Shown here: piece by piece, positions 891-42,521 of the stretch | How the letters are laid out: each line of letters starts with the position of its first letter | Numbering within the stretch: the stretch's first letter is position 1 | Source of the DNA: a virus | DNA length: 64,000 bases | Strand: one strand, 5' to 3' | Virus record (IMG/VR): IMGVR_UViG_3300023174_000110 | Span: 27,561-91,560 of that record | The notes under the pieces: generated by a model | Databases searched by the model: none | Seen by the model: only the letters and a program-made list of their open reading frames with translations | Told to the model about the DNA's origin: nothing | Translations under genes and position numbers: made by a program

Positions 891-1309
891 TAATCTTTGC
901 CTTTAATGAGTTTATTCAACTCAGCGGTAGAACCAATAAAGATGGCTTTATCAATATTGGTACCGCCTTTATCTTTTTTGGCGTTTTCATCCATGTCACG
1001 CATTTGTTTTTGTATTGCCAGTAACTCTTTATTGGCGTCTACCACATTTTTGAGTAATGTGCCATATACTTCAAAAGCACGGGGATGCTGTCCTGCTTTA
1101 GCAATGTTAAGTATTTCTTGCATTGCTTCTTGGCCTTGATCAATAAGGCCTTGCAGGTTTTCTCTTGATTGTTGGTATGCATCTGTAAGGTCCTGTTTTA
1201 AATCAGGCTCGTTATAGTGTGTTTGAAATACCGGAAGCTTTTCTTTTTTTTCTTCTGGTATAGGAGTCACATCAAAAACATCAGATAAATTTTTATTCAA
1301 ATCATTCAT
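890..1309 (-). CDS. gp16: Terminase small subunit (gp16-like)
   Basis: 139 aa, compared with 164 aa for T4 gp16. In T4 the small subunit forms rings that recognise DNA and stimulate the gp17 ATPase. Residues 30-110 are mostly helical and charged, consistent with the central coiled-coil oligomerisation core of the family; the N-terminus is acidic and the C-terminus lysine-rich. It overlaps the gp15 gene upstream by 8 nt and gp17 downstream by 1 nt, a tightly coupled packaging cassette. Assignment rests on fold character, size and its invariant position before gp17. Confidence 0.87.
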   Translation of the reverse strand: MNDLNKNLSDVFDVTPIPEEKKEKLPVFQTHYNEPDLKQDLTDAYQQSRENLQGLIDQGQEAMQEILNIAKAGQHPRAFEVYGTLLKNVVDANKELLAIQKQMRDMDENAKKDKGGTNIDKAIFIGSTAELNKLIKGKD

Positions 1310-2294
1310 ATTCAGTTATAATTGTGTTTGCTGTCCATGTGTTAGCCAAGGCTACATTTGCATTGGCTGGGTTAACTAAAGTATCTATTTGCACATATTT
1401 TCTAGATGTTGGACTATAAGAAGCAAATTTATAGTTTGTGCTTGAACTTGTAGATTTTATGGGCACACTAGAAATAAAATTACCATTTATGTTTGTTAAA
1501 TGTAGTTGATTGTTATTCCAAAAAATAACTTTTCCTGTGGCCGTTGCTGTGCCGGCTGAATATCCTTGATATACAATTTCACCTATTTGGTAATTTCCTA
1601 CTCCAGAACTTCCATTCATATTAAAAATAACAACATCTTCTGGACCAATTTTATTTAAAACAGATGTAATTGAATGTGTAATAAGTCCTTTTGAAGAATC
1701 ATTAATTTTACCAAATACAAATCCTTTAACCGTAAAATTTAATGTCCAAATAATATTTCTTGTTTCTCTGGAGTGTACACCCTCATAATCAATATCTTGT
1801 GATGTTGAATTTAAAATAATTGGAACCTCTTTAATAATACCCATCTCTGGAATCAAATTTAATTTGATTGTATAATCAGGTGTAAAATAAGGAAGAATAT
1901 GTTCAATAATTTGTGTACCATCTTCTATGTTACGGACATAGATATACAAATTAAAATCAAAATTATACGGCACTGGATTGTATTGAGAAATTAAACCAGC
2001 ATTTGTTTTAGCAAAATTTTTAACGTTTGTATTTAATTTTCTAGAAGAATCGTAAGTAAACCCTGTCATTTCAAATGACATTCTTGGTAATGTTACTTGA
2101 ACTTTTTTGTTTAATAACGGATCTTCTTCATTACGAAAAACATATAATTCTTTTGGACCATAGATAATAGGTACAATTAATCTTTCTGCTTCGGTAAAAT
2201 CAGGATTGTATCGAACCAAAGTAATATCATTAAACATATTACCAAAACCAATAACAAGTTTTCGTATGATTCGATTATAAAAAATATTGGCCAT
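1302..2294 (-). CDS. gp15: Tail terminator / sheath stabiliser (gp15-like) with added C-terminal domain
   Basis: 330 aa against 272 aa for T4 gp15. In T4 a gp15 hexamer caps the tail tube and sheath and joins the tail to the neck. The N-terminal part (residues 1-200) looks like gp15: start MANIFYNRII, then the YGPKELYVFR stretch and a conserved TLPRMSFEMTG segment. Residues about 229-293 are extra: a beta-rich module starting NYQIGEIVYQGYSAGTATA that also occurs in gp14 encoded next door, and in gp8 and gp7. The start is ATG at 2292-2294, overlapping the gp14 stop by one base. Confidence 0.88.
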   Translation of the reverse strand: MANIFYNRIIRKLVIGFGNMFNDITLVRYNPDFTEAERLIVPIIYGPKELYVFRNEEDPLLNKKVQVTLPRMSFEMTGFTYDSSRKLNTNVKNFAKTNAGLISQYNPVPYNFDFNLYIYVRNIEDGTQIIEHILPYFTPDYTIKLNLIPEMGIIKEVPIILNSTSQDIDYEGVHSRETRNIIWTLNFTVKGFVFGKINDSSKGLITHSITSVLNKIGPEDVVIFNMNGSSGVGNYQIGEIVYQGYSAGTATATGKVIFWNNNQLHLTNINGNFISSVPIKSTSSSTNYKFASYSPTSRKYVQIDTLVNPANANVALANTWTANTIITEYE

Positions 2295-3175
2295 TATATA
2301 CTTCCAAATGGATTGGTTTCAGAAAAATCAATAATTGAATTGGCTTGATTTTCAATAATGTAGTTATCACTTGATTCATCTCTAACATTATCTTTTAGGG
2401 GATCAAAATTGGCCAAAAGATATTTAGCATTACTGGAAGCACCAATAATATTGGCTGATGGCCTAAACTCTCCTGCAATATTGGTCACGTTTAATGTATT
2501 GGCTTTTTTATTCCATTCTTGTACAATGGCAACCACAGTTGCATTGGATTGAGTGTTGTCATGAGCTTGATAAACAATTTCTTTATTTTGATATGTGCCT
2601 GTACCAGCCCCAACATTAAGTTGAATGGTGTAAGAAGAAAAGGTTGCGGAGTCATCAATCTCTTGAACACCCGTGTTAATAAGTTCATGTGAGAATTTGA
2701 ATTTCTCTAATTGTAATTCATAAAAATAAGGTACTCGTCTACCCAATGTATGAAAATCTTTATCTTGGTCTGCAAATTTGATTTCATATAATTCACCAGT
2801 ACCATTTAAGTAAGGTACGTAAATCAAATCACCTTCACGAGGCCTTTGAAATACATTTTGTGGAACTCGTTGAGCAAAGGATCTTTTGGAAACAATAACA
2901 TTGATATTGTTTTTAATTTCAAGACCAAATTTAGAAAAGAATTCTTTTTCACCATCATAATCTAATGTATTAGAAAGATACAATTCTACAGGAAAAGCAG
3001 ATTGAAATTTTTTAACTGGATCTTCACCAAATAATAAATCCCGAGCAATGTCATTATCGTTAGGCAAATAGTAACCATCAAAGCCCATTATTTTAATGGA
3101 CTCAACAATTAAATCTTCTAAAACTCTTTGTTCGGCTATTGAGTTATAGTTGTTAAAGTAAACTGAAGTTGGCAT
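2294..3175 (-). CDS. gp14: Neck protein (gp14-like) with inserted IVYQG domain
   Basis: 293 aa; T4 gp14 is 256 aa. In T4 gp14 completes the head neck between portal and tail and helps hold the packaged DNA. The N-terminal part (MPTSVYFNNYNSIAEQRVLE, then IKIMGFDGYYLP) and the RPREGDLIYVP stretch at residues 111-121 are typical of the family. Residues about 190-257 form an insert (TYQNKEIVYQAHDNTQSNAT ...) homologous to the C-terminal module of the neighbouring gp15, which explains most of the extra length. One base separates it from gp13. Confidence 0.87.
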   Translation of the reverse strand: MPTSVYFNNYNSIAEQRVLEDLIVESIKIMGFDGYYLPNDNDIARDLLFGEDPVKKFQSAFPVELYLSNTLDYDGEKEFFSKFGLEIKNNINVIVSKRSFAQRVPQNVFQRPREGDLIYVPYLNGTGELYEIKFADQDKDFHTLGRRVPYFYELQLEKFKFSHELINTGVQEIDDSATFSSYTIQLNVGAGTGTYQNKEIVYQAHDNTQSNATVVAIVQEWNKKANTLNVTNIAGEFRPSANIIGASSNAKYLLANFDPLKDNVRDESSDNYIIENQANSIIDFSETNPFGSI

Positions 3176-3176
3176 T

Positions 3177-3944
3177 TTAGTTCAAGAAAAACTCCAATGG
3201 AGCTCCATATTCATTTTGCATTTCTGTTTCTAATTTTTCAATTTCACCAACGGCTTCTTCATAAATTTTGTCGCCATTTAATGTAACACCACCAGGTAAT
3301 TGTAGGCCATTGAATTTCTTTAAATTGTTACCCCATGTTCTTTTTATTAATGCGGTTGCATATTCTTTCATCCAACGATCATTCCAAACTCTATTATAAA
3401 CTGCAGGATCAATATTGGCATAACATTCAGCCACAACAATTTTAGGTGATTGTGATGCTCCCCACGCCCAATCAATATATAATTTTTGCATATGGCGTTG
3501 AAAACGAATTGGCACTTCACCAGAAAATAATAATTCCAATGAACGTAAATGTTGTAATGTTAATGTATAGTTAACATAAGAAGCTGAAGTAAAATCATAT
3601 AATTCATTTAAACGAAGTTGATATCTTAAATCAAACATACTGACTGAAGCCATAGAATCTTGAATTGGAAATATACGAGTAATACCAACAACTTCTAAAT
3701 GGTTATTAGAACTATCTCTGACATTACTTAAATCAATATATTTTTGATTAATATCGGTTTGATCAATTCTTTTTACATAATAAAATTTTTGAAGTCCATC
3801 AAAATGATAGTCTTGCCAATATTGCAGCGCATCGTCAATGCGATCTTCTATTTGGTCCTCATCCACATTAATGTCGATTACAGGAAAGCCCAATCTACGT
3901 AAACAGTAGTCTTTAAAATCTTGTCTGGATGTGATTATTGCCAT
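3177..3944 (-). CDS. gp13: Neck protein (gp13-like)
   Basis: 255 aa; T4 gp13 is 309 aa. In T4 the gp13 ring binds the portal directly and forms the head-neck platform. The N-terminus (SRQDFKDYCLRRLGFPVIDI) and the following acidic, helical VDEDQIEDRIDDALQYWQDY segment are family hallmarks. Residues 140-230 include LFSGEVPIRFQRHM and a KEYATALIKRTWGNNLKKF helix. It is transcribed just before gp14 and has an AGGAA ribosome site upstream of the ATG. The 42-nt gap in front holds a CTAAATA motif (3967-3973). Confidence 0.9.
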   Translation of the reverse strand: MAIITSRQDFKDYCLRRLGFPVIDINVDEDQIEDRIDDALQYWQDYHFDGLQKFYYVKRIDQTDINQKYIDLSNVRDSSNNHLEVVGITRIFPIQDSMASVSMFDLRYQLRLNELYDFTSASYVNYTLTLQHLRSLELLFSGEVPIRFQRHMQKLYIDWAWGASQSPKIVVAECYANIDPAVYNRVWNDRWMKEYATALIKRTWGNNLKKFNGLQLPGGVTLNGDKIYEEAVGEIEKLETEMQNEYGAPLEFFLN

Positions 3945-25998: not shown

Positions 25999-28900
25999 TT
26001 AAACCGCCGATGGTAAAGCGATAGCACGAATGTCCGAAAGGTACGGAACAAAAGTGTTATCTGATGTTGATAAAACAACTTTAATAGCGAATTGGCTAAA
26101 GTTGTTATACGTTTGATTTGTTACATCACTAGTATATGAAACATAATTTTGTGCTTTGCCAAATGATCCTGGTGCGGCAACAAACTCATATGTATCATCT
26201 CGTGTTTGGGAATATAATGAATCACTATTGTTAATTAGTGTCATCAATTGCCATGTACCTTCTTCAAATTTCTGTGTATCACTTCTAGAAAGTATTTTAT
26301 AATATACGTATATATTTGTATTGACCGGACGATAAGCAGTAAAGTAAACTCTTAGATCGCCAGAATCAAAACCTTGGTTCAACACAACCTTCTTAGTAAA
26401 ATATCTGGCCAATGCATTGCCACCAGATTTAGAAGTTTCACCAGCAAGAATAACGGAGGCATTTGAATTGCCAGAACGAGTACTATTATCCGTTATTGTT
26501 ATTGTGGGAGTAGTTATATAACCTGAACCAGCATTAGTAATGTAAACACTATCAATAACACCGCCAACAACGTTGGCCATCGCAGTTGCGCCGGTACCAT
26601 AACCATCAGTAGAGTTCACGGTTACGGAAACTGTTTGTGCATTGTATCCTGTTCCACCAGAAACAACTGTTATAATGTTGTTTGATAATCCAAGATTATT
26701 AATGCTCCATGTTATAGAATATACACTTAATCCATCATCAGAAATTACAGGAGAAACAGCATCATTTACAGAAGTCATTGTTGCAAATAGAGAGAATGAC
26801 GTATTTGAATTTGCATTTAATACACGTTGTCCCAAACCATCATTCAAATAAATGTCATCATAAGTTGGTGTACCAAATTTACCAGGAGTTACACTTACAG
26901 TAGGTGCACCTGCATATGATGATTTTACTGTTGATGCATATTGGTAACCCACAGAAGTTGTACCTGGTATAAAATCTGTTGTTGAAATATTAAAAGCATC
27001 GACAGAAACATCCGTGTTCTCAAAAGATGTTATTGTATTTGAAATAGAATTTGCATTTAAATAATATTCTATTTCTTGACCAACAATTTTTCTACTAGGT
27101 AATTTATTAGGTACAACAAATTGTATTTGTGGTTGTGAACCAACATCAAATACACATCTTTCAACAACAAACATCATAGATTCATTTTGATCTGCTGTCC
27201 ATGTTTGAGAATTTTGTGATACAAATAATGAACCAACATACGGCGCAGAGTTAATTTTTGTTGTTGTAGCTGGTGTAGGATCAGTTGGCAAATTTTTAAC
27301 TGATGAAGAAATTGCTGTATCACCGTTTTGTGCGGTATAAATTGTATACTCGTTAGATGTAGGACATTTTAATATAAATGCATACAATTTATTTGGTTCC
27401 AAATAAACTGGTGTTGGGAATTTAAATACTGTATATGTATTAGGATTTAAATAGTGTGGATCATTGGATGTTTTTATGTGTTCGGCTGTTAAAGTTACTT
27501 GTGAATGATCCAAAGTTTCTCCACCAGGATATCCATTGACTGTACCTACAATTGATATTGTTACAGGTGCATATCCAGTAGAAGGCTTGGTGGCAAAGAA
27601 AACTTTAATTGAATCTAAAAAACAACCGTTTGGATAATTATCTTTATCGATAATAAATGTTTGAGCTACTGGATCCCACACAGTTGTGTAATTATAACTA
27701 CTTACATTTGTTTTGGTTTGTGTTTGTGTAAATGTATTTTTTGCTGAATCAATTGAAGAAGCATAATTTACACCTTGTTTTGTTGTTTGTAAACCAGAAG
27801 CATGGAATGTAGCTTCAGAGAATGTTGTTTCTGAACCTATATTACCAGCAATTCGATTATCTACTCTGAAAGTTCTTTGGCCTGTTTTGAAAGTAGCACC
27901 AGGCAAAGCAAAAATACCAGATAACATACCAACTTCATTGGTTGTTAGTTTTCCAATAGAGTAGATGTCATTTGCAGCTGCACCAACTCCTGTTGTTAAA
28001 GTTGCTGTTTTTGTGGTCGTGTTGTACGCACTAATTACAGAAGATCGTCCTGCACCAGAACCACTAATAACATACAATGTTTGACCGGTATAAATGTCGG
28101 TGTTTGATGACGCAACAGACAACTGAATCGATGTTGTTGAGTTTGCACTTCTTAATCTTCCTGATACACCGGTATATGAAACAATTCTACCACTAGCAGT
28201 AGATGATTGATATTGTCCAGATGTATTAAATTTGGCATTCTGCAGTGTTACGCCAGAATTAAATGTAATTCCTTCTAAAGTTACAACATACAAACGAACA
28301 TTTGAGTTTTGTGGATTAACATAATAAGAAACAATTTTGGCATAAGGTGTAAAGTTACCACCAGCAAATAAACCAATAACATCTCCATCAGCAAATGATC
28401 CACTAACATTTGTTAATTCTATAATATTTGGTTTACGAATATATTTGTCAACTAAAACACCATCAAAATATGCACTTACATCGGTGTTAACCAACATACC
28501 ATAAGTATTGAACTGTAAAAATTGTTGGCGAATATATGGTAAAATACTGACATCGGTAATGTATCCAGATGTTTCGAGGTAACTGGAACTTAACTTATCA
28601 TATTTACCTAATACAGTTTTTTGTTGTTGCTCTGTGTAGGTTGTAACCTGATTTACTCTCCAGTTTCTTCCGGCAGCAATTACATTATCTGTGGTGGTGG
28701 CTACTGTTGTTTTCCAATCACCAACTTGCAACACATTAACTTGATCACTTGCACGATATACTTGTAGATTTGGATCAACAATTAATAAATCAGGAGCTTT
28801 TTCGGTATCAACCCAATTGTCCATTGGAGGAGTTAAATCCATTACACCCGAATTCAATGATACAGCAAATGGATTTAAATTAACTGTACGAGAAGCAATC

Positions 28901-31900
28901 TGTTGAGTAATAACATTGGATGTTGTATAAGATAACGTAAAGAAATTGGATTTTCCAGCAGTAGTAATTTTGTAACCTAAATTATTTGCACTGGTGGAAT
29001 CTAATTGACCCATATTGTATATCAATGATAGTGATTGTAATGGGAAATTTTTAACCACTTGCGCTGCTGTCATTTGTTTTGTTCTGCGGTTAACGGAAAC
29101 CAAATAATCATTATTGGAAATATCAGATGCAGCATAACTAGAAAAATCATCTACTAATATACCATTTTTAAATCGGTTTAAACCATTACCATCAGCAATT
29201 TGTAATGAAGCAGCACCTTTTTCCAAAGTGTTTAGAGCCGTATAGTATTCAATATTATTAACTCTGCTCTCCAAATCGGAGATATCTCTCATTTGCCAGC
29301 GTTTATGTTTTACTCTTTCAATTGAAAGATTTGGTAATTCTCCTGTTGCTTCACCTGGAATGTAAGCTGTGTATGGATCATGAGTTAAGTTTGCAATAAC
29401 GAGTGCACCATCTGGTTCACCAGGCGAAATTGGATTGGATGAAGGAGTGCCTTGGATAATTTCAAAAGACCTATCTTTACTTAAAATAAGTTTATCTTTT
29501 CTACTCAAGTAATAACCATAATTGGATTCAAATATTGAAAGATCGACAGGTATGTAAGCACCTGAGGCACCTGATCCAGATGCACTCGCTCTAATTGTAA
29601 AATTAGGTTGAGCATTAATTAAAGATGGCCTAAAGTCCAAACAATCTCTTAATTGATATGGATTGCCAGTTGAACTTGTGTAAGATGGAATTTCAGCATA
29701 ATTTTCAGGCGAAGAAGAAATTGGTGCCAAGTAGGACATTACACTATAATATCCATCACCACCAGTTGTTGCATAGTAATCTAAAACCACAAGTAAATTA
29801 CCTTTAATTGCAGGCTGACCTACACCTAAAGTAATTGTGGCAAAATCATAATGAGAATCTCTTTGGCCATTATCAAACGTAAATCTATTGGTAATATCAT
29901 AAGAAGGATCGGACAACATTGCAGCTGTTGGGAATGTTGCTTGAGATTTTGTGTCAATGATTTTTACAATTCGTTTTACATCCGTAATGTATAATTTTTG
30001 TGGAGATCCTGGATTAACCAAACCTTGCCAAGTAATATACACTTGACCTTGTGTTGTGTCAACATAACTGTAACTGTTGACAGTTGTTCCAGAAAGATTA
30101 ACGCCGGTTGTATTACCTGTTACTAAATTTTTAGCTTTAATAATATAACTTGTATCGTTGCCGGCTTTAACATACGTTTTAGCAATAATTGTTCCAGTAA
30201 ATGCAGTTAAGTCACTAGTTGGTGTTGTAAATGTGGCCGTAGAACCTGCACCAGTAATCGAACACGTTCTAGATAAAATGTTCCAAGGAAGTGTTTGACC
30301 AGCCCTTAAACCTGCATTTGAACCAGGATTTGTTACAATGATTTGAAAGTTTTGTGAAACGGCATCGGCTGATAATGATCCTGATCCTAAAAAAGAAAGA
30401 GTAGAAACAGGTGCAGAACCAAAAGTTAATGTTGCAACAATGTTTCCACCAGAAATACCAAACGCAACGTTTCTAAACACCTGTGTTGTTAAGTATGAAG
30501 TGTTGTTTGCATAACTTACATATTGATTACCTAAGTTAAACAATAACTCAGGTGCATTTGGATTTTGAAGAACGGTGTCAGCAAGAACATCATTTGTTTT
30601 TTTGCTTGATGTATCAATTGTTGCATTTGCTGTAACAGTATATGGCGTTCCTGCTGTTGCTTTAATGATAGTTTCTATATCAGTTACATCAAACCTTAAT
30701 GTAAATTGAGAAGAAGTGGTTGGTGCAACCGTAAAAGGTCTATCAACGTAAGCGATTTTGCTAGCGGCATCATATCTAGTAATTACACGAAAATCTCCAG
30801 CAGAAGTACCTTTATCAATACTCACAGTTACATTGTAGTAAGCATTTGCTACATTTGAAAATTGATTTGTGCTTGGTAATGTTATGTAAGAATTGTTTGC
30901 TGAACCGGCGGCCACATTAGCTGTTAAGGTTTGGTTTTGAATTCCAAAAACATATGCTTTATAAATGTAAGCTGATCCATTTGCTGTGTTGGATGTACTG
31001 GAGTAAACCATATTCCTAATATATCCTGTGGCTGCTTTAGTTGAGTTGTATGAATTTTCATTTGTCAAAGAGATGCTTGTTTTATCTACCGTGTGAAAAT
31101 CAACAGAAGGTAAAGTAGTTACATCAAATACACCATTGGATGAATTGACAAAGAAATAATTTCCATAATCAATAAATGTTGGATTATTTAATACACTATC
31201 TTGAGTTCTTGCTCGGTCGTTTGTTAATGATACAGGACTTTGATTCTCCAACCTATAACCACGGACATAAGAAACACCTTTTGAAATTCCAATATCATAT
31301 TTACTGGAATTAATAGTGTTTGCTTTAGGAGTTAAAGTATAATCACTAACAATAAAGTCACCATTAGTATCATTTGTTCTTTTGGCAAAATAATCGTCAA
31401 TAACAGAGTATACGGTTCCATCAACTTGTTTTTGTATTGTTCCTTCTGAAAGGCGAACCAATTCAATAAAATTGTCATCGTCACCTAATGTTAGAGGCCG
31501 AGTTTCTAACGATAAACTAATTAAATACCGGTCGGCTCCAGGAGCTTGGTAGTTTGTAGCACCTAATGCTGGATCCAGCAAAGTGGTGTCATCATTAGAA
31601 TCTATAATTGTTTCTGTTGCATTTAAACCTACTCTTAAAGAAGGATTTTCGTTGTATTTGGAAAGAATAACCGTATCTTCAGAAGCAGTTACAAAATTAC
31701 CTTTAACATAAAAAATACCTCTCGATATAGAAGCAATGGATCCTTTTCCTGTAGCCTCATTACCAACAGATGAAGTAATAATAGTTGCAATATAGTTTGA
31801 TCCATTTAAATAGATTGTGTCACCACTACCAAATTTATTACCGGTAATGTACGTTACCATTAACGTTGGTGGATCACCGTCAACTCCAATAGAAGTTGAT

Positions 31901-32244
31901 GTGGCTTCTGCAAAAGCAATTACCTTTGCAACAACCGAACCATCTTGGCTATAAATTGTTCCATTTTCAAACGATGCTGCAATTGTGGTTAGTCCAGATG
32001 GTGTGGTTCCATTTAACTTTAGAAAATAAACATTTTGGTTAACTGTTACTTTACCGCCAGAAACGGGAGTGTTCTGAGCAAAAATTGCATCAGCAAAACT
32101 TGTGATTTGATTTTGTAGGATGGTTTGAGATTGTGTTAACTCACGAGCCTGAACAGAATAACCTGGCTTAAAAAGAATTCGATGGTAGTTTTTAGTTACA
32201 TCAAAATCATCATAGTACGGTTCTACATTAAAATTAAGTGCCAT
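25999..32244 (-). CDS. Giant baseplate/fibre-base protein (DUF4815-type), 2081 aa
   Basis: The N-terminus is typical of the DUF4815 family of T4-like marine phages: EPYYDDFDVTKNYHRILFKP then GYSVQARELTQSQTILQNQI. The protein is beta-rich, with a charged helical stretch near residue 980 (RVKHKRWQMRDISDLESRVN). Near residues 1850-1930 it has GxGY-type repeats (SGGTGYNAQTVSV and ITNAGSGYITTPTI) shared with gp6, gp7 and gp8. The C-terminal 100 residues (DLRVYFTAYRPVNTNIYVYY, then SQFAIKVVLSTSDNTFVPYL) form a compact domain. By position after gp8 it may do the job of T4 gp10/gp11, linking baseplate to fibres; that is inference. Confidence 0.75.
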   Translation of the reverse strand: MALNFNVEPYYDDFDVTKNYHRILFKPGYSVQARELTQSQTILQNQITSFADAIFAQNTPVSGGKVTVNQNVYFLKLNGTTPSGLTTIAASFENGTIYSQDGSVVAKVIAFAEATSTSIGVDGDPPTLMVTYITGNKFGSGDTIYLNGSNYIATIITSSVGNEATGKGSIASISRGIFYVKGNFVTASEDTVILSKYNENPSLRVGLNATETIIDSNDDTTLLDPALGATNYQAPGADRYLISLSLETRPLTLGDDDNFIELVRLSEGTIQKQVDGTVYSVIDDYFAKRTNDTNGDFIVSDYTLTPKANTINSSKYDIGISKGVSYVRGYRLENQSPVSLTNDRARTQDSVLNNPTFIDYGNYFFVNSSNGVFDVTTLPSVDFHTVDKTSISLTNENSYNSTKAATGYIRNMVYSSTSNTANGSAYIYKAYVFGIQNQTLTANVAAGSANNSYITLPSTNQFSNVANAYYNVTVSIDKGTSAGDFRVITRYDAASKIAYVDRPFTVAPTTSSQFTLRFDVTDIETIIKATAGTPYTVTANATIDTSSKKTNDVLADTVLQNPNAPELLFNLGNQYVSYANNTSYLTTQVFRNVAFGISGGNIVATLTFGSAPVSTLSFLGSGSLSADAVSQNFQIIVTNPGSNAGLRAGQTLPWNILSRTCSITGAGSTATFTTPTSDLTAFTGTIIAKTYVKAGNDTSYIIKAKNLVTGNTTGVNLSGTTVNSYSYVDTTQGQVYITWQGLVNPGSPQKLYITDVKRIVKIIDTKSQATFPTAAMLSDPSYDITNRFTFDNGQRDSHYDFATITLGVGQPAIKGNLLVVLDYYATTGGDGYYSVMSYLAPISSSPENYAEIPSYTSSTGNPYQLRDCLDFRPSLINAQPNFTIRASASGSGASGAYIPVDLSIFESNYGYYLSRKDKLILSKDRSFEIIQGTPSSNPISPGEPDGALVIANLTHDPYTAYIPGEATGELPNLSIERVKHKRWQMRDISDLESRVNNIEYYTALNTLEKGAASLQIADGNGLNRFKNGILVDDFSSYAASDISNNDYLVSVNRRTKQMTAAQVVKNFPLQSLSLIYNMGQLDSTSANNLGYKITTAGKSNFFTLSYTTSNVITQQIASRTVNLNPFAVSLNSGVMDLTPPMDNWVDTEKAPDLLIVDPNLQVYRASDQVNVLQVGDWKTTVATTTDNVIAAGRNWRVNQVTTYTEQQQKTVLGKYDKLSSSYLETSGYITDVSILPYIRQQFLQFNTYGMLVNTDVSAYFDGVLVDKYIRKPNIIELTNVSGSFADGDVIGLFAGGNFTPYAKIVSYYVNPQNSNVRLYVVTLEGITFNSGVTLQNAKFNTSGQYQSSTASGRIVSYTGVSGRLRSANSTTSIQLSVASSNTDIYTGQTLYVISGSGAGRSSVISAYNTTTKTATLTTGVGAAANDIYSIGKLTTNEVGMLSGIFALPGATFKTGQRTFRVDNRIAGNIGSETTFSEATFHASGLQTTKQGVNYASSIDSAKNTFTQTQTKTNVSSYNYTTVWDPVAQTFIIDKDNYPNGCFLDSIKVFFATKPSTGYAPVTISIVGTVNGYPGGETLDHSQVTLTAEHIKTSNDPHYLNPNTYTVFKFPTPVYLEPNKLYAFILKCPTSNEYTIYTAQNGDTAISSSVKNLPTDPTPATTTKINSAPYVGSLFVSQNSQTWTADQNESMMFVVERCVFDVGSQPQIQFVVPNKLPSRKIVGQEIEYYLNANSISNTITSFENTDVSVDAFNISTTDFIPGTTSVGYQYASTVKSSYAGAPTVSVTPGKFGTPTYDDIYLNDGLGQRVLNANSNTSFSLFATMTSVNDAVSPVISDDGLSVYSITWSINNLGLSNNIITVVSGGTGYNAQTVSVTVNSTDGYGTGATAMANVVGGVIDSVYITNAGSGYITTPTITITDNSTRSGNSNASVILAGETSKSGGNALARYFTKKVVLNQGFDSGDLRVYFTAYRPVNTNIYVYYKILSRSDTQKFEEGTWQLMTLINNSDSLYSQTRDDTYEFVAAPGSFGKAQNYVSYTSDVTNQTYNNFSQFAIKVVLSTSDNTFVPYLSDIRAIALPSAV

Positions 32245-32256
32245 TTTTTCTTTCCA

Positions 32257-33669
32257 TTAAAATCTTAACACAACACGGAATTGTTCAGTAGCATCTCCGC
32301 TACGTTCAACTCCTGTTCTATTTTCTATATAAGTGATATATCCAGAATAGATAATAAAATCGGGATCGGTTACTTGTAATAACGTTCTAATAATAGCCTG
32401 ACCTGATGATAAACTTTCTTGTACAAGAACTTCATTTGCAGTTGGTGTTCCTGTTATATTTATGACCTTTAATATATTGGTTGCTGGATTAAAGCTAACA
32501 ATTTTTGCTTTGAAAGTTGCTCTTGCCAAAGATGGTCCTTGGTACACCACTTGGCCACTATCATACGAACCCAATCCAGAAGAAACCAAAATACTTGTCG
32601 TTACGTCATACACAGTTTCAGTTGCATATGGTATAAGTTTTCCTTGATTACTTTTTGAATAGGGATCCAATATCATACCTAATTGCCTGTAGGTAATATC
32701 GGTTGGTATTAATCCACCTTCACTACCATTAAATTCTAAAGCCGTCATAACATGATTACATCCCAACTCTGATATAGGATCAAATCCGTGACCTCCTATT
32801 GGCGATACAGGACTACTCGCAGTAGCAACTACATTGGGTGACGGATAACCTGCCTCCGTTGTTATTATTGTTTCGGCATAAGTATATCCTTGGCCGGTAT
32901 TTGCCATAACAATGTCTGTAATAAAGCCGGATGCGTTAACACTAGCCGTAGCATTTGCAAATTGACCATCACCATTAATGGTAATTTTTACACCACCAGA
33001 AAAGTAACCACGGCCGGTGTTTGTAACATTAATAACCTGAATATCACCTTGCGCAGCAAAAGTTTCAACCGGATTTGGAATGTTTTGGCCAATACCAACC
33101 ACAGGCATCCAATTCACATCTAAGAATTTTTGTTTTTGGCCAATGTTAATTGTATATAAAAATTTCCACTTATAACCATCTGCTGTTTTTACCAAGAATG
33201 ATTTGTCAAATGTACCAGGTAAAAACTCAGGTTCAATAGTCGATTGTGATCGGTTAGCATTTCCTAAACATTTGAACACCTGATCAAAACGATTTCGCAC
33301 ATAGAAATTTTTTGTTAGTATACCATTTGCATCAACCGTAAACATATCTTCTGTATCGGAATATTCATCATATACTACACCAGTTTTCCAATCTCGCCTT
33401 GGTATTACCGGAGAAATATCAGATGATGTTACCTTTTTGGCAGCAATAATATTTTTGAATACTTGCTTTAAAGAATATTGATCCTGTGTTGGCATGGGTG
33501 GATCTTCTTCATCTGGCCATGGATCCACTTGGCCAATAAACGCATATAAAGCATTCTGTAATGTGTTTGTGGCATTAGAGGTGGTTGCAGGAGCATAATA
33601 ATATTGTAGCACCTCATATATTTTACTGCCGTATATGAGTTGAGATGAGTTTGCTGTAAAATTTGCCAT
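32257..33669 (-). CDS. gp8: Baseplate wedge protein (gp8-like)
   Basis: 470 aa; T4 gp8 is 334 aa. In T4 gp8 dimers join the wedge around gp7. The core signature is visible: VIPRRDWKTGVVYDEYSDTE, then FYVRNRFDQVFKCLGNANRS and FLVKTADGYKWKFLYTINIG. Extra length comes from two mobile-type modules. One is a GxGY repeat pair (NVTNTGRGYFSGGVKITING and VMANTGQGYTYAETI). The other is an IVYQG-type domain near residues 365-430 (GSYDSGQVVYQGPSLARATF) shared with gp7, gp14 and gp15. Position close to gp7 supports the call. Confidence 0.88.
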   Translation of the reverse strand: MANFTANSSQLIYGSKIYEVLQYYYAPATTSNATNTLQNALYAFIGQVDPWPDEEDPPMPTQDQYSLKQVFKNIIAAKKVTSSDISPVIPRRDWKTGVVYDEYSDTEDMFTVDANGILTKNFYVRNRFDQVFKCLGNANRSQSTIEPEFLPGTFDKSFLVKTADGYKWKFLYTINIGQKQKFLDVNWMPVVGIGQNIPNPVETFAAQGDIQVINVTNTGRGYFSGGVKITINGDGQFANATASVNASGFITDIVMANTGQGYTYAETIITTEAGYPSPNVVATASSPVSPIGGHGFDPISELGCNHVMTALEFNGSEGGLIPTDITYRQLGMILDPYSKSNQGKLIPYATETVYDVTTSILVSSGLGSYDSGQVVYQGPSLARATFKAKIVSFNPATNILKVINITGTPTANEVLVQESLSSGQAIIRTLLQVTDPDFIIYSGYITYIENRTGVERSGDATEQFRVVLRF

Positions 33670-33681
33670 AGTATGTATTTA

Positions 33682-35763
33682 TTAAGCGTATTGGATTGCT
33701 ACAAATGTATTTGCGTTATCACCATCAATACTGAAGTATCTTAGGTACGCAGAAGCCGTTCCTGCTATACTAAATGTTGTTGAATTGACAGTTGAATTGG
33801 TTGCTGTACAACCATGTGTAATTGTTCTTGCTGCGCCGCCAGTATTTGTTAACCAAACTTCAACCACTTTGCCATGTACATAATTTGAAAGTGTTATGAT
33901 ACAATCTGCAGCAAGTGAAGCTTTAATTAATGATGTTGTTGAAAAATCAATTGTAAAGGCTGTCTGAGCGCCAGGTAAAATAGTTGGATTATAAATGAAT
34001 CCTTTTTCTGGTTTAACTGTACCAGTAAATTCAACAGAATCCGCATTGAATGAAGCAATTTCCGTGACCGCATTTGATCCATTAGGAACATTATAGAATT
34101 TAATTTTAGAACCACGAGCAGCATCTGTAAAATTCTCAGCAGCCACAATATCTATTCTTGATACACCTAGTGATGCAAATCTTGTGGTGCCATAACCGTT
34201 ACCTGCTAATCTCAATAACACATCATTATTTTGTGTTGCTGTCGGTGCTGCAGCGGTACCTCTAGCAGAACGACCTGCCAATAAACCATATGTGTTTGCA
34301 CCAAAACTATCCAAAACAACTCTGGTTGGTAAATTTGGTTTACCTGTAATCTGTAACATATAACCATCATTTTGTGGTTCAACTACAACTGCATTATTAC
34401 TTCCCGTAATACGAACAGCGGCTTCAGTTGCTGAAGCTAAAGCTGTGTTTACAGTTAATTGACCAGTAGCAGCGACCCCAATCATTGTTACATTACCTGT
34501 AACATCTAAATCACCTGGTAACGACAATGATCCATCCGTATTAAAATTAAATTGTTTTCCGTTGGCTTGTAGTGTAAACGAATTCGATGTCGAAACCATA
34601 AATGTGGTTGGACTTGCTGAAGGATTATATCCAATTTCAGTATTATCCGGGAATACAATATAGTTTGGAACAGTTAAATTTCCATCCGTTCCAAATTGGA
34701 ATTGTTTCTGAACACCACCATTATCAGTTTGTATTTGTACACCAGCGTTTGAACCGATATAAAGATCATCAGTTGCTGAAATAGTTTGGCTACCATCAAA
34801 CACCAAATCACCAGTAATGGTCAATGTACCACCAAATATACCTGTTGTATTGGCTAAAGCATTGTTTGCTTTGGTAAATGCAGCCCAAGCATGATTGTTT
34901 GCTGTAGTGATGTTGGTGTTCTGTGTTGTGTTAACTGCCTGTAGTATGGCAATATTGCCAGAGTTTGTATTTGCAGCATTAAAAGCTGCCCAAGCTTGGT
35001 TGTTGGCAGTTGTTATATTGGTGTTTTGAGTTGTATTAACACCTTGCATTACTGTTATACTATTACTTTGTGTATTGCCTTGTGCATAGATTGCTGCAGC
35101 ATAAGTGTTTACATTAATGGCAAAATTATATGCAGAGTTTGCTTGATTGAAAATGATTTGTGAATGTGCTGCTGTGACCGCTGCCGTGTTTTGTATGGTG
35201 TTATCAGCAAACTTGATAGGCATCTTTAGAGATAGACCAACACCATCTTCAATTCTTGCAACTTCATTGGCTTGTTTATGATCACCAGTAAAGAAAACTA
35301 AATCAGTATTTGCAATCGCTGTACCAATCCACAAATTACCATACTTTTGATTGTCCTTGCCATGCATATACAAATAACCATCATTATTGGGTAAGTCAAA
35401 TGTTGGATCAGCATCCATATTTGAACCTTGAACACCCAAATCCAAATAATTATTTGAGTTGTCGCCATCATCTGATGTTATAACAATGTCAGCAGAACCT
35501 TTTCGATTAATGTTTTGAAAATTAACTTGTGAAAAGATTGCAGTATTACTAATAAATTGTGCTACAGAATTTGGAAGTAAAAGACCGGTGTTTGCAGTAC
35601 CAACATTCAAAATATTATTGGCATATAGGCCTTGAGCCAGAACTGTGGTAGAAAACTGTGAAGTTGTATTGGTAGTTCTATCTACCACCACAAATACTGT
35701 GTTGGCGTTGTTAGCCGATAACTGTGATAAAACTGGTAGTTGTGATATTTTTACTGTTGCCAT
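33682..35763 (-). CDS. Tail fibre protein between gp7 and gp8, 693 aa
   Basis: The N-terminus (VKISQLPVLSQLSANNANTV) and the domain ADIVITSDDGDNSNNYLDLG / NDGYLYMHGKDNQKYGNLWI / TDLVFFTGDHKQANEVARIE are typical of fibres in T4-like aquatic phages. Residues about 200-300 contain the shared AWAAFNAANT / [10 protein letters not shown] shaft repeats. The C-terminal domain (FTIDFSTTSLIKASLAADCI, then TITHGCTATNSTVNSTTFSI) is a beta tip. It is embedded in the wedge cluster only 3-13 nt from its neighbours, so it may be a wedge-attached fibre. Confidence 0.72.
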   Translation of the reverse strand: MATVKISQLPVLSQLSANNANTVFVVVDRTTNTTSQFSTTVLAQGLYANNILNVGTANTGLLLPNSVAQFISNTAIFSQVNFQNINRKGSADIVITSDDGDNSNNYLDLGVQGSNMDADPTFDLPNNDGYLYMHGKDNQKYGNLWIGTAIANTDLVFFTGDHKQANEVARIEDGVGLSLKMPIKFADNTIQNTAAVTAAHSQIIFNQANSAYNFAINVNTYAAAIYAQGNTQSNSITVMQGVNTTQNTNITTANNQAWAAFNAANTNSGNIAILQAVNTTQNTNITTANNHAWAAFTKANNALANTTGIFGGTLTITGDLVFDGSQTISATDDLYIGSNAGVQIQTDNGGVQKQFQFGTDGNLTVPNYIVFPDNTEIGYNPSASPTTFMVSTSNSFTLQANGKQFNFNTDGSLSLPGDLDVTGNVTMIGVAATGQLTVNTALASATEAAVRITGSNNAVVVEPQNDGYMLQITGKPNLPTRVVLDSFGANTYGLLAGRSARGTAAAPTATQNNDVLLRLAGNGYGTTRFASLGVSRIDIVAAENFTDAARGSKIKFYNVPNGSNAVTEIASFNADSVEFTGTVKPEKGFIYNPTILPGAQTAFTIDFSTTSLIKASLAADCIITLSNYVHGKVVEVWLTNTGGAARTITHGCTATNSTVNSTTFSIAGTASAYLRYFSIDGDNANTFVAIQYA

Positions 35764-35766
35764 TTT

Positions 35767-38676
35767 TTACCCTATGATTAGATAAGTTCCTTGTTCTGTG
35801 GTGATATCGTTGCCGGCTTCTGTCGCTAATAATGGATAATCATATACAAATACTTGACCGTATATGAATGCGGTTTGTGTATTAGCATTCTTGTTTACTG
35901 TTATTCTAGAATTACCTGATGGTCCAAATGAACTGTTGGCCACCGATATGTTACCGTTGGCAAATACTCTGGTGACTGCATAATATGGTCCACCGTTTAA
36001 CGAAACACTATCTCCAACGTATATAATGTTATTGGCTGGTGTCTTTCTGTCAAAATTACCATCATATTGTCCTGTAACTGATGTTATATTTATGACGTTT
36101 GAGGAGGCATTTGCATATCCAAAGCCCACATTCGCAAAAGTCAAAAATACATTGTCATCAATTGTTAATTTGTTATTCACATGATCAACATCAGTAATTA
36201 AAGAATACACTTTTACATTATTGCTGGATTCAAATTTTATATAATCATTAGCAAATATAGTGTTACCAATGTTACCAGATATAACATTGTTGACTTTGAT
36301 AATATTACTACTAATTATATTGGTGGCTGTGTTGACTTCTAGGGTCAAGTAAGCTGCACCACCAGCCACATACTCTAAAGTGTAACCTTTTTGGTGTCCC
36401 GTTTCTGTTCCAAGGTTAAACGAATTGGAACTTCTTAGTAAATTTCTACCAATAAGTTTTGAGCCAGCTGGATGTAAAAGGTTTAAAATTAAATCTTTAT
36501 ATGATTTTAAAGCTTTTTCTACCGATAAAACGTATGTATACTTATTATAATCTAAACTCTCTAGAACTAATCCTAATGAAGAAGGCTGTCCATCTTCATT
36601 TAAATATACACCTTGGCCAACAATCAATCCATTTAAAAATGCTGCGTTAGCTTTGGCATTACCATCACCATATTTAATCATACTGCCAGGTAAACCAGCT
36701 TTGTTAATCAATACTGGTTGTGGACTGAAATTTAATTGTACTGTTGTGTTGCCAACTTCTCTATCAATATTTAAAGTTAATCCTTCGGCATAATTTCCTG
36801 AATAATCATACACCCTTAATCTGTAGATGTCATTTTGTGTATTTCCTGTGGGGTCAAATGAAGTTCTAGTAAAAGAATAAACATTTGCAGAATATGTTGC
36901 AGATAGGTATGTATTACCTTGATAGATGATATCTCCGGTAACAATTGAATTTGTTCCAGACACATTACTCAGAGCAATATCTTGCACATTTAAATATACC
37001 TTTGGTGCAGAAACGTAATCTTCGCCTGGATTGGTAATATTGATGGTTGAAATTTGGCCAATACGATCCGTTGTTGGAGATAAAATTGCACCATCTCCCA
37101 TAATTCCTGGAATAACAAGACTTGCATTTGATCCATATTCACTATTAATTATTACAGTTGGTAGATCGGAAAGTGTATATCCAAAACCACCTAATGAGTA
37201 AGTTGTGTTTATATTGTTGCCAGAAAATATGTATGGCACCCTAACAATTGATCCTGTTGCGTTAACTACTATGTTCGCAAACGCTCCTGATCCCAAACCA
37301 CCAACAATACTAATTGTGTCATTGTTCCCATAACCAGTACCAGCATTTCGAATTGAAATAGGTTGTAATATGCCAAGATTTTTTAAATCACTTTGTCCTG
37401 CGTCAGTAGAATACAAAGAAGTAACAGTAACGTTTGGTGTTTTATTATATCCTGCACCTTGATTTGTAATTTTAATAGAACCGATTGGCCCAACAGCAAA
37501 AGATGTAAATGTAAATGCATCCACTAATCTAGAATTTGTATTAGTTACACCTGGATTTTGAAATATATTATATGTTTGTGCTAAAGTCGTATTGCCAATT
37601 GCTATATTTGAAGCCGTACCTAAAGAGTTGCTGATAATAAAAGAAACATTTGTTAATTTTTCACTATCTAATAAATTAATTTCAGCTTTTGCTGGTGCGT
37701 CTGCCGTTCCTAAAAAATTAATAGCTGAATTTGGAGATAATCGATAACCATTTGATCCATCAGTAACAACTATAGATGAAATACTGCCTCTTGTTGTTTG
37801 ACCAACAAAAGCTTCTGCACCAACTGGATCAACAACATCCGGATTCAATCCACCAGAAATAATAACAGGATCACCCGGTTCATAAAATTGGCCACGTTCT
37901 TTGGAGTTTATTCTAATCGATGAAATAACACCAATAATTTTACCTCTTAGTATTACAGCGTTTTCTGGTATGTTTACTCCTTGGTTTTGAATATAAACTT
38001 TACCATTAAGGAAATAAACATCTGAATTATTGTTGTCAACTACACGAACAAATTCTCCAGAATTAAATAATCTTTGTATGTTTGAAATAAAAACTTCAGT
38101 TTTAGAACCAGTTACACTTGAATAATCAATGGTTGCATATGATTTGGTTGTTTCTCCAAAAATTCTTAAATTATTAATTAAAAGCCAATTTGGATTTAAA
38201 GAATCTATTCTTAAAGATTTTGTAATCACCCATTTGCCATCTGAAGCTTTTAAAACTGTATCGGATGTGTTAAATATTTCGGCACTTGAGTTGTACAAAG
38301 CTCTAAACAGGAATTTATAAGAGTTTTCTGTTCCTTTGGTGTTGTACAATTCTTTTGATATTTTTAATAATTTTCTTTTATCCGTTAAAGCATCTTTTGG
38401 TATGTAAGGAAGAAAATCATTAATAAAATAATCAATAAATTCATCTAATGTGTTGTCAACATTAGAATAATTTAATAAATTCTTTGATGCGTATGTTACA
38501 CCTTGGTCACTTGAAGTAACAATAGTATTTGATGCATTTGCACTATGAGTTGTTTCCATCCATTGATAGTATGCTTCAATAAAAGAAACAAAATTTTGAT
38601 AAGCAGAATCATCCTGAATAAATTCAGGAAGTTGTTTAGCAATCTGTAATGATGTTTTGTGATTATCTAAAATCAT
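35767..38676 (-). CDS. gp7: Baseplate wedge initiator (gp7-like)
   Basis: 969 aa; T4 gp7 is 1032 aa. In T4 gp7 nucleates the wedge and binds gp10, gp8, gp6 and gp53. The N-terminus shows the conserved plan: LPEFIQDDSAYQNFVSFIEA, then NTLDEFIDYFINDFLPYIPK, then DKRKLLKISKELYNTKGTEN and SYKFLFRALYNSSAEIFNTS. The rest is beta-rich, with several GxGY repeats (VTDGSNGYRLSPNSAINF, ITNQGAGYNKTPNVTV, IRNAGTGYGNNDTISIVG, ITNPGEDYVSAPKVYLN) and a domain with GDIIYQGNTYLSATYSANVY. It is followed by the 693-aa fibre and preceded by gp6, as expected for a wedge operon. Confidence 0.86.
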   Translation of the reverse strand: MILDNHKTSLQIAKQLPEFIQDDSAYQNFVSFIEAYYQWMETTHSANASNTIVTSSDQGVTYASKNLLNYSNVDNTLDEFIDYFINDFLPYIPKDALTDKRKLLKISKELYNTKGTENSYKFLFRALYNSSAEIFNTSDTVLKASDGKWVITKSLRIDSLNPNWLLINNLRIFGETTKSYATIDYSSVTGSKTEVFISNIQRLFNSGEFVRVVDNNNSDVYFLNGKVYIQNQGVNIPENAVILRGKIIGVISSIRINSKERGQFYEPGDPVIISGGLNPDVVDPVGAEAFVGQTTRGSISSIVVTDGSNGYRLSPNSAINFLGTADAPAKAEINLLDSEKLTNVSFIISNSLGTASNIAIGNTTLAQTYNIFQNPGVTNTNSRLVDAFTFTSFAVGPIGSIKITNQGAGYNKTPNVTVTSLYSTDAGQSDLKNLGILQPISIRNAGTGYGNNDTISIVGGLGSGAFANIVVNATGSIVRVPYIFSGNNINTTYSLGGFGYTLSDLPTVIINSEYGSNASLVIPGIMGDGAILSPTTDRIGQISTINITNPGEDYVSAPKVYLNVQDIALSNVSGTNSIVTGDIIYQGNTYLSATYSANVYSFTRTSFDPTGNTQNDIYRLRVYDYSGNYAEGLTLNIDREVGNTTVQLNFSPQPVLINKAGLPGSMIKYGDGNAKANAAFLNGLIVGQGVYLNEDGQPSSLGLVLESLDYNKYTYVLSVEKALKSYKDLILNLLHPAGSKLIGRNLLRSSNSFNLGTETGHQKGYTLEYVAGGAAYLTLEVNTATNIISSNIIKVNNVISGNIGNTIFANDYIKFESSNNVKVYSLITDVDHVNNKLTIDDNVFLTFANVGFGYANASSNVINITSVTGQYDGNFDRKTPANNIIYVGDSVSLNGGPYYAVTRVFANGNISVANSSFGPSGNSRITVNKNANTQTAFIYGQVFVYDYPLLATEAGNDITTEQGTYLIIG

Positions 38677-38679
38677 TTA

Positions 38680-40749
38680 TTAACTACTTGCTGTAATGTT
38701 TATTTCAATTGCTGACTGATCAGTATTATCTAATGTGATAATTTTATCTTTATCAGAAGAAACAATTGTTGAATTTGGTATTGCTTGTAAGGTTAATATA
38801 CCTAAAGGATTATCAATTTGTGATGGATTAAAATCGGTCAATGTAATTACGCCAGTTTGATAGTCTACTGTGCCAGCATTAACATTTAAAATTGTTTTAA
38901 CACCTTCACTATAATAATATGTTCTTAATGTTCCTCTGTTGCCAGCTAAAACAGCCAAAGCTGAACACATAGTTCCGTTACCATCAGCTGAAGTAATTTC
39001 AATTAGAGCTTGTGTATAATTAATTCCAGGGTTTGTTATCGTAATATTATTAACTTGGCCATTTACAACAGTTGCTTTTGCTGTTGCACCTGTGCCATCA
39101 CCTACAATGGTTACTATTGGATTGGATGTGTAACCAAATCCTGGATTAATAATAGTTATAGAATCTAAAAAAGTTGTTCCTGATGGAGTTTCTTCTAGAT
39201 ATGCAGTTCTAACAATGTTATTATTTTTTGTGTCAATTACTTGAAAAGTGGGACTAATACTAATACTTTTTGAGAAAATATCTTTTTTCAATGGCACACC
39301 AAAATTAAATGAATATGATGTTGAATTAAGTAAATTTGGTGAAAATCTTTTTTGTAACACTAACGATGCATCATTAGTTATAAATGATTGATTGACAGAT
39401 TGCACCGCAGTTATTAATGATGACAATTGAAATGTTGAATTAAATTTATTTAATGTATTGGTTGCAAAATTCTGAATAGAATTAAATACTTGTGTTTCTA
39501 ATTGATCAGAAGTTAATGCTGTTAATTTTGGATTATAATATATGTTTGATATAATTTTTAAGTATGTATAGTCAACGTCTATAATCTTTGGTTTAATTGT
39601 TAACACAGAAATAGGTTTAATAATTTTTTCTTCAATAATATTTTTTTGTGTTTGTGTTAAAGTGTATCCACCTTTTGGTTTTATGGCAATAAAAATAGTA
39701 CCATAAACAGGAGGACTATTTTCTTCTCCGCCCCAAACATTAACAGCGTCTATTGGAAAAATACCAGCATTGTTTTGAATTAAATAAATGTAATCTTCTT
39801 TTGTAACAGCACGACCTTGAGCAGAGTATGATTTAGGTGCTGTGTACTTAATTGATTCAATGGTTTCTTTTTCGGAACCTTGTGTTGTGGATGTGACAGG
39901 TGTTATTGTGGTGTTAGAGTATCCAGAAATAGAATCCATCAATACAAAATTATTGGCACCAGTTGAACTTGTGCCATTAGTTACAATATATGAAACTGTT
40001 ACAATATTACCATCAGTAATTGATTTTCCTAATATGCCATCACCAAAATATATTTGATAGTAACCATTGATACCTTCCTGTAAAAAATACACACTCGATG
40101 TTGAATCCAAACTTAAATAATCTGAAGCCAAAGTATAAATTTCGTAGGCAGTATTTGAACCGCTCTGTTGCACAGATACAGTTAATGTAGAAGTGTCAAT
40201 GTTTGTGTCAGGTAAATCAAATATAGCTGTTGGGTTGGCTGCAGAATCATAAGTATAATTTAATGTAATTGGCTCACCTTGTTTCAAAGTTAAATTTGAA
40301 AATGTAACCGAATTAGAAAAAGTATTTGTGTTTAATGTTGTTGAATTAACTGTTACAAATTTGTAATTTACGCCATCAATTGCTTCGGACATGAATGTGG
40401 TAAATTTTGGTAGTGTCAATGAAGAATCTGTTACTTGATTGAAAGTGATATTAATGGTGGCTGATGGTGCTGATGCCGATTTTGGTGTATAATTTAATAA
40501 TTTTGCATGAGAAACAACAGACGACCTCTGTAAAGCTGAATCCAAAAACATTTCATTGGCAACCATATTCAAATAATAAGCATTATATTGTGTATTGTAA
40601 GAAAGAATGTCTAACAATGTAGAAAGTGCAGATCCTTCATAGTTGTAATCTTGTAATGTGTTTTGTGATTGCAAAAACTTTTTAAGATTAGTTTTAATTG
40701 TATTAAAATCTAAATCGGTAATCTGAATATTGGATTTATTTCCAGCCAT
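38680..40749 (-). CDS. gp6: Baseplate wedge protein (gp6-like)
   Basis: 689 aa; T4 gp6 is 660 aa. In T4, gp6 dimers form the continuous inner ring of the baseplate that triggers sheath contraction. Seen here: an N-terminal segment DLDFNTIKTNLKKFLQSQNT, then EGSALSTLLDILSYNTQYNA and YYLNMVANEMFLDSALQRSS, the strongest family signature, then EKETIESIKYTAPKSYSAQG and RAVTKEDYIYLIQNNAGIFP. Near residues 535-600 a GxGY repeat pair is inserted (NPGFGYTSNPIVTIVGDGTG, ATVVNGQVNNITITNPGINY). It overlaps neither neighbour but lies 1-3 nt from both. Confidence 0.92.
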   Translation of the reverse strand: MAGNKSNIQITDLDFNTIKTNLKKFLQSQNTLQDYNYEGSALSTLLDILSYNTQYNAYYLNMVANEMFLDSALQRSSVVSHAKLLNYTPKSASAPSATINITFNQVTDSSLTLPKFTTFMSEAIDGVNYKFVTVNSTTLNTNTFSNSVTFSNLTLKQGEPITLNYTYDSAANPTAIFDLPDTNIDTSTLTVSVQQSGSNTAYEIYTLASDYLSLDSTSSVYFLQEGINGYYQIYFGDGILGKSITDGNIVTVSYIVTNGTSSTGANNFVLMDSISGYSNTTITPVTSTTQGSEKETIESIKYTAPKSYSAQGRAVTKEDYIYLIQNNAGIFPIDAVNVWGGEENSPPVYGTIFIAIKPKGGYTLTQTQKNIIEEKIIKPISVLTIKPKIIDVDYTYLKIISNIYYNPKLTALTSDQLETQVFNSIQNFATNTLNKFNSTFQLSSLITAVQSVNQSFITNDASLVLQKRFSPNLLNSTSYSFNFGVPLKKDIFSKSISISPTFQVIDTKNNNIVRTAYLEETPSGTTFLDSITIINPGFGYTSNPIVTIVGDGTGATAKATVVNGQVNNITITNPGINYTQALIEITSADGNGTMCSALAVLAGNRGTLRTYYYSEGVKTILNVNAGTVDYQTGVITLTDFNPSQIDNPLGILTLQAIPNSTIVSSDKDKIITLDNTDQSAIEINITASS

Positions 40750-41912: not shown

Positions 41913-42521
41913 TTAGGAAAAACCTAATGTTACCACTAAAACAGTATTTGATGTTTGTAAATTCAATGATTGAACAGAGATATACAAAGCATTTCCTGTG
42001 TTAGCTACATTATTAACTCCAATTTGAGCAGGTTGAAAAACACCTAAAGTTGAAACAGGGATATTTAATAAACCACCAACAAAATTTGATCCATTGAATG
42101 CGGTAACTGTTGCAGTTCCTAATCCATTAACAATTCTTGCTGATAAGTATTGTACTGTTAAATTTCTTGGAGAATAATTAGTAAAATAATATGTATTTGC
42201 AACCGCTATTCCAGTAATATTTAATGTGGCTGTGGTGTTTGCAAATGGTCCTGTTGAACCAATGGGTCCTGTAGCACCAGTAGAACCTATTGGTCCTTGA
42301 ATGCCTGTAGCACCAGTCGTACCTATAACACCCGTTGCACCGGTAGAACCCGTGGTACCTGTAAGACCAATTGGTCCTGTTGCGCCGGTTGTTCCTATCA
42401 CACCAGTAGCACCAGTAGAACCTACTAGGCCTTGAACACCTGTAGCACCAGTTGAACCAATTGGGCCTGTGGCACCTCGGCCTAATCCACTATTTGCAAG
42501 CTCACTTTGTTTTAATGGCAT
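41913..42521 (-). CDS. Short collagen-like virion protein, 202 aa
   Basis: Residues about 13-95 are uninterrupted Gly-X-Y triplets, mostly G-A-T, G-S-T and G-P-I, with Thr in most third positions. A C-terminal globular domain of about 105 residues follows ([20 protein letters not shown] ... VLVVTLGFS), which may act as a trimerisation knob. Bacterial and phage collagen-like proteins form triple helices without hydroxyproline. It is the shortest of three collagen-type genes in a row, 4-5 nt from its neighbours, and may form the distal part of the same appendage. Confidence 0.8.

Follow-up and report, generated by a model that had tools for sequence, protein, structure and literature searches.

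A shared beta-rich module in neck and baseplate wedge proteins of T4-like phages

Four virion proteins of an uncultured T4-like virus, the neck proteins gp14 and gp15 and the baseplate wedge proteins gp8 and gp7, contain homologous copies of a single module of about 75-90 residues, the IVYQG module. On balance, and with some reserve, we read this module as an accessory domain inserted at peripheral sites, most likely exposed, where it would form repeated sites on the virion surface.

Four copies in neck and wedge proteins

The DNA analysed here, referred to as the window, is a stretch of 64,000 nt (positions 27,561-91,560) of the 91.6-kb IMG/VR record IMGVR_UViG_3300023174_000110. The neck genes gp13-gp14-gp15 are located on its minus strand at 1302-3944. 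A wedge cluster with gp6, a gp7-like gene, gp8 and the gene of a 2081-residue protein lies on the minus strand at 25999-40749. The features, in window coordinates, are as follows.

1305..1409, minus strand: gp15 C-terminal tail after the module (hhalign score 17.6 versus ≤12.1 in 100 shuffles, at a probability of only 18%)
1410..1664, minus strand: IVYQG module in gp15, residues 211-295, strands predicted at 222-295 (HMM iE 5e-33)
1665..2294, minus strand: gp15 core, tail sheath stabiliser/terminator (Pfam T4-gp15_tss 1.3e-62; T4 gp15 in PDB)
2297..2398, minus strand: gp14 conserved C-terminal tail, DN..IE..AN.IIDFSE.NPFG (hhalign 1.9e-13 versus tails of module-free gp14s)
2399..2662, minus strand: IVYQG module in gp14, residues 172-259, with the phrase EIVYQA (HMM iE 6e-32)
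2663..3175, minus strand: gp14 core, head closure/neck protein (Pfam T4_neck-protein 1.4e-27; T4 gp14 in PDB 4e-21)
32257..33669, minus strand: gp8 baseplate wedge protein (phrog_438 4.7e-82; T4 gp8 fold 1n7z E 1e-12)
about 32368..32619, minus strand: IVYQG module in gp8, residues about 351-434 (HMM iE 2e-23)
35767..38676, minus strand: gp7-like baseplate wedge protein, 969 aa (phrog_17744 1.6e-30)
36718..36993, minus strand: IVYQG module in the gp7-like protein, residues 562-653, the most diverged copy (HMM iE 2e-5)
32815-33057 (gp8), 38959-39174 (gp6), about 37177-37458 (gp7) and about 26518-26655 (2081-aa protein): sites of a second module, with G.GY motifs

Judged by their Pfam and PHROG matches, the identities of gp15, gp14 and gp8 are beyond doubt: they score 211.6 bits against PF16724, 97.2 bits against PF11649 and 45.5 bits against PF09215, respectively, each with a curated cut-off of 25. 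The gp14 gene is flanked by gp13 and gp15, and the whole gp15 model matches the T4 gp15 fold (Foldseek 7e-12). The gp7-like protein scores 23.8 bits against PF23786, below the cut-off of 27; its gene position after gp6 fits, and it also matches phrog_4406 and phrog_701, which comprise giant cyanophage virion proteins. Two other ORFs were observed in this region: a fibre-like ORF of 693 residues between the gp7-like gene and gp8 (33682-35763), and a collagen-like ORF with G-A-T-G-x-x-G triplet repeats that adjoins the wedge genes (41913-42521).

Module alignments were built from homologue families in IMG/VR and combined into a profile of 33 rows. This profile matched exactly four places in the 91.6-kb record (9e-32, 2e-30, 3e-27 and 4e-6) and likewise exactly four module copies in the window. 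A single gp15 copy used as query retrieved those of gp14 (E 8.6e-9) and gp8 (5.5e-7) from the 91.6-kb record to which it belongs. Profile-profile comparison with hhalign gave E-values of 5e-18 for gp14/gp15, 3e-17 for gp15/gp8, 8e-14 for gp14/gp8, 6.5e-9 for gp8/gp7 and 1e-5 for gp15/gp7. The six pairwise scores were 93, 85, 71, 46, 31 and 21, against maxima of 15-20 in column-shuffled controls. The weakest pair, gp14/gp7, is on its own not significant (21 versus a control maximum of 19.6), and the gp7 copy is counted in the family because it is linked through gp8 and gp15.

The pattern G.G.Y..GE.VYQG....AT..A.V..W......L.V.N..G.F....I.G is found in full in gp14, gp15 and gp8 and mainly in its first half in gp7. 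Profile positions Y32, Q33, G34 and N60 are common to the module copies within the window's clade, where the Q is near-invariant (0.94-1.00) across all four genes. Neither this Q nor the near-invariant N is retained in the cyanophage copies. A preliminary description, made from the window's sequence, had proposed such a module in these four proteins. All four copies proved to lie at or very near the positions it gave, with significant profile alignments. The profile search that it recommended recovered the four-copy family and found cyanophage copies as well, and none in T4.

Insertion sites and predicted fold

In gp8, the profile segment 314-341 aligns to T4 residues 262-289 and the segment 421-457 to T4 298-333; the module occupies the position of an eight-residue gap in T4 gp8. 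It is likewise a clean insertion in gp14, where it sits between the core and the conserved C-terminal tail. Here, the gp14 of Sinorhizobium phage phiM12, in which the core is joined directly to the conserved tail with no module between them, is a better module-free comparison than T4 gp14. The alignment of the window's gp14 to T4 gp14 in the PDB reaches residue 174 only. In gp15, the module starts after residue 210, where the alignment to T4 gp15 stops, and the tail that follows is probably related to the tails of module-free gp15s, as its alignment score suggests. The preliminary description also held that T4 gp14 and gp15 are shorter by about one module, which fits gp15 (58 residues) better than gp14 (only 37).

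Once the tail has joined, residues 178-256 in the C-terminal region of gp14 touch residues 203-245 of gp15 in the T4 virion (PMC12270204). Both neck insertions are therefore in or beside the gp14-gp15 contact zone, and because of this contact the two modules could be partly in an internal interface. T4 gp14 also binds host Hfq hexamers in neck assembly (PMC12270204). A resemblance of the gp14 core (residues 59-112, window 2840-3001) to Hfq, with E 0.005 for the single sequence and 0.08 with a profile, was dropped as a likely chance match.

Two of the carriers, gp15 and gp8, were modelled with AlphaFold2 from shallow alignments. Outside the module, the gp15 model is of low quality (overall mean pLDDT 58.9), while module residues 221-290 reach pLDDT 84-91. 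For gp8, the overall value is 79.5 and that of module residues 351-420 about 88-94. Six strands are predicted in each module, at 222-226, 240-243, 252-260, 263-271, 279-281 and 290-295 in gp15, and at 353-362, 374-377, 386-394, 399-407, 413-417 and 427-434 in gp8. Their order is identical and their spacing similar in the two models; structure prediction was among the checks proposed in the preliminary description. Together with the profiles, this strand order bears out a shared, beta-rich module, longer than the roughly 65 residues first suggested.

Against a viral structure library, the gp8 model matched Kyanoviridae wedge proteins, an S-RIM32 neck protein (E 2e-4) and giant structural proteins. 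These cross-matches may run via the IVYQG module or via the second, G.GY-type module. The latter (GGTGY...PTVTI...GTGA.A.A...G.I..I.ITN.G.GY) is shared by gp6, gp7, gp8 and the 2081-residue protein, and through it, the PHROG profiles of distinct proteins match each other. The Foldseek queries were the whole gp15 and gp8 models, and the cores dominate the matches; EF-Tu/eIF2-type barrels and antibodies, which gp8 matched weakly (E 0.06-0.4, probability ≤0.25), were disregarded.

A sequence search of the PDB with the module profile gave no match, and no Pfam family matched the 33 module copies at significance. By sequence, the module does not belong to the Ig, FN3 or Big families, the only hit being a stray match to Ig_NUP210_9th (0.005) in one copy. 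An Ig-like fold is a Greek-key sandwich of seven to nine strands; the predictions for the module give the order of six strands along the sequence.

Distribution, exchange and evolution

The Kyanoviridae phages syn9, S-SM1, P-RSM4 and S-RIM8 carry the module in gp14, gp8, a gp7-like protein of ~6,000 residues and a 2,400-residue protein, and it is absent from their gp15. The ~6,000-residue protein is designated gp7-like on the strength of gene order and common PHROG matches. The whole genome of S-PM2 gave the gp14 copy alone; T4, RB16, Vibrio D480, Campylobacter F375 and pf16 gave none. Module-free gp15s, gp14s and gp8s occur in related phages. Among the phages examined, those with a module in gp15 were confined to the window's clade. 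A tblastn search of annotated phages with a single module copy returned nothing at 1e-5, and a query made from gp14 of cyanophage S-SM1, with a brief N-terminal stretch fused to its module, returned 438 records. PHROG 460 (Hc2), 438 (wedge), 701, 4406 and 18802 (virion structural proteins) contain the module unmarked, within longer proteins.

Among loci in which gp14 and gp15 are both complete, the module is present in the two proteins at 120, in gp14 only at 16, in neither at seven and in gp15 only at none; several of these loci come from one genome, so the events are not independent. The loci were retrieved with a module-containing query, which makes any count of retention a biased sample. 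Cyanophages with a module in gp14 and a module-free gp15 rule out an obligate pairing of the two.

Other domains are found in the same slots. In a close relative (locus L015, 1619-3226), gp15 has 535 residues and consists of the core, the IVYQG module, the tail and then a C-terminal LamG domain of the concanavalin-like, lectin type (Pfam 4.7e-16), the single example among the loci examined. The 762-residue gp14 of S-SSM7 (L166:1185-3473) contains a LamG-like domain (7.6e-6, slightly below the curated cut-off) and G.GY repeats, and its gp15 (L166:3498-4580) an unrelated C-terminal insert. Melnitz and HTVC008M have unrelated sequence in the module region of gp14. Nested insertions within module loops were found in gp14 of syn9 and of two further loci (L047 and L050).

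In a tree of the module, a single group comprises all copies from gp15, and the same holds for those from gp14 and those from gp7; no donor gene emerges. As the copies group by host gene, there were few, old transfers between genes, followed by vertical descent. The earlier picture of a domain that hops among virion proteins is apt for a transferable, shared domain, and overstated as to how often it moves. Modules evolve faster than the cores of their carriers: mean identity is 0.50 in the module versus 0.74 in the core for gp14, 0.53 versus 0.73 for gp15, 0.43 versus 0.55-0.62 for gp8 and 0.44 versus 0.57 for gp7. The rates of the gp14 and gp15 modules do not co-vary in excess (partial r 0.30, against 0.26-0.29 in control pairs), a result that does not argue for a direct clasp between the two, though it is compatible with one.

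Possible roles and relation to known systems

An exposed, exchangeable accessory domain is favoured because the modules show lower conservation than the cores, their loops take insertions and their slots hold other domains. Together with their position between conserved segments, this lends indirect support to the surface decoration that the preliminary description had envisaged. The module would be a small, independently folding unit of six beta strands, acquired on a few ancient occasions by virion proteins that form rings or wedges. The places it took would be peripheral ones, namely the junction of core and C-terminal tail in gp14 and gp15, a loop of gp8 and the interior of the gp7-like protein, which would leave the assembly cores and tails intact. 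Most likely, the modules project outward from neck and baseplate. Scaled by T4 stoichiometry, including the copy numbers of gp7 and gp8, roughly 6 gp14, 6 gp15, 12 gp8 and 6 gp7 copies would be present per virion. They would probably make weak, multivalent contacts to molecules of the cell surface or the environment, and/or pad and stabilise exposed surfaces; a catalytic function, or one essential for assembly, is unlikely. The near-invariant Q of the window's clade could be a functional site instead of a fold residue.

We consider it rather unlikely that the modules instead form an assembly interface, with those of gp14 and gp15 packed together and that of gp7 against that of gp8, an arrangement that would strengthen both head-tail joint and wedge. 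The carriers do come as neighbouring pairs, both neck modules fall at the T4 contact zone, and gp15 never has a module where gp14 lacks one. This nested pattern, however, is probably the outcome of a single gain and therefore no independent evidence for such a clasp, and cyanophage gp14 has the module while gp15 does not. The lack of excess rate coupling between the two neck modules, and the fact that modules are the faster-evolving parts of their carriers, also speak against it. Purely neutral padding, spread by recombination among structural genes and tolerated at permissive loops with no specific role, would agree with this faster evolution and with the many different insertions at identical sites. 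Such inserts would, however, be expected to decay or vanish in some members. The module was kept in the 120 gp14/gp15 pairs of the window's clade, a sample biased by its module-containing query, and retains 43-53% mean identity and its core signature, so that we give this explanation little credence.

The preliminary description had also suggested a common partner. One fibre, whisker or other virion protein, for example a retracted side fibre held at baseplate and collar, would then dock on the modules of both neck and wedge. In favour of this, the long tail fibres of T4, when in their 'up' conformation, have interactions with the neck fibres (PMC12270204). Neck and wedge do bear the same type of module, with Y32, Q33, G34 and N60 shared across the clade's copies. 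This proposal fared poorly: the gp14 module occurs without a gp15 module in cyanophages, S-PM2 yielded the gp14 copy alone, the clade's Q and N are lost in cyanophages, the neck modules show no excess rate co-variation, and no candidate partner protein was found. A common partner is therefore improbable, and it is very improbable that the modules are matched docking sites for, say, a side fibre that is drawn back between baseplate and collar. If they were, a single mobile domain would link two distant parts of the virion, and fibre retraction would be unlike that by T4's whiskers.

The proteins of the head-tail joint, gp14 and gp15, are usually regarded as conserved connectors, yet they also act as platforms on which domains, LamG among them, can be exchanged. 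Should the module bind molecules of the cell surface or the environment, neck and baseplate would have an overlooked part in adsorption; should it be an internal clasp after all, the head-tail joint of these phages would be constructed unlike T4's. The analysis also gives a name to a domain that is widespread in the structural proteins of a highly abundant aquatic phage group and that has no Pfam family or sequence-detectable solved relative.

The LamG/concanavalin-like domains of the L015 gp15 and the S-SSM7 gp14 occupy the same C-terminal regions as the IVYQG module, but are unrelated to it, belonging to a lectin-type superfamily of about 130-150 residues. A parallel is offered by the Ig-like domains of phages, for which an accessory binding role is thought likely (Fraser et al. 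2006, as cited in PMC9022992). As presented there, they too are small beta domains that are not essential for assembly and were added in mosaic fashion to several classes of virion proteins, with tail tube, baseplate, capsid, Hoc and fibres among the carriers (PMC9022992). The IVYQG module differs in having no Ig, FN3 or Big match and in its location in gp14/gp15 and gp7/gp8, between conserved segments. Domain mosaicism in phages was surveyed using named ECOD domains by Smug et al. 2023 (PMC10684548), who mostly highlight receptor-binding proteins, endolysins and polymerases. The module resembles such mosaicism in that homologous domains occur across functional classes, neck and baseplate proteins among them, but it is without a named family and its transfers are old. 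The five PHROGs that hold it do not describe it as a shared domain. As it has no Pfam or PDB-sequence counterpart, and no description of it was found in the literature searched, the IVYQG family itself is new among the promiscuous small beta domains already known on virion proteins.
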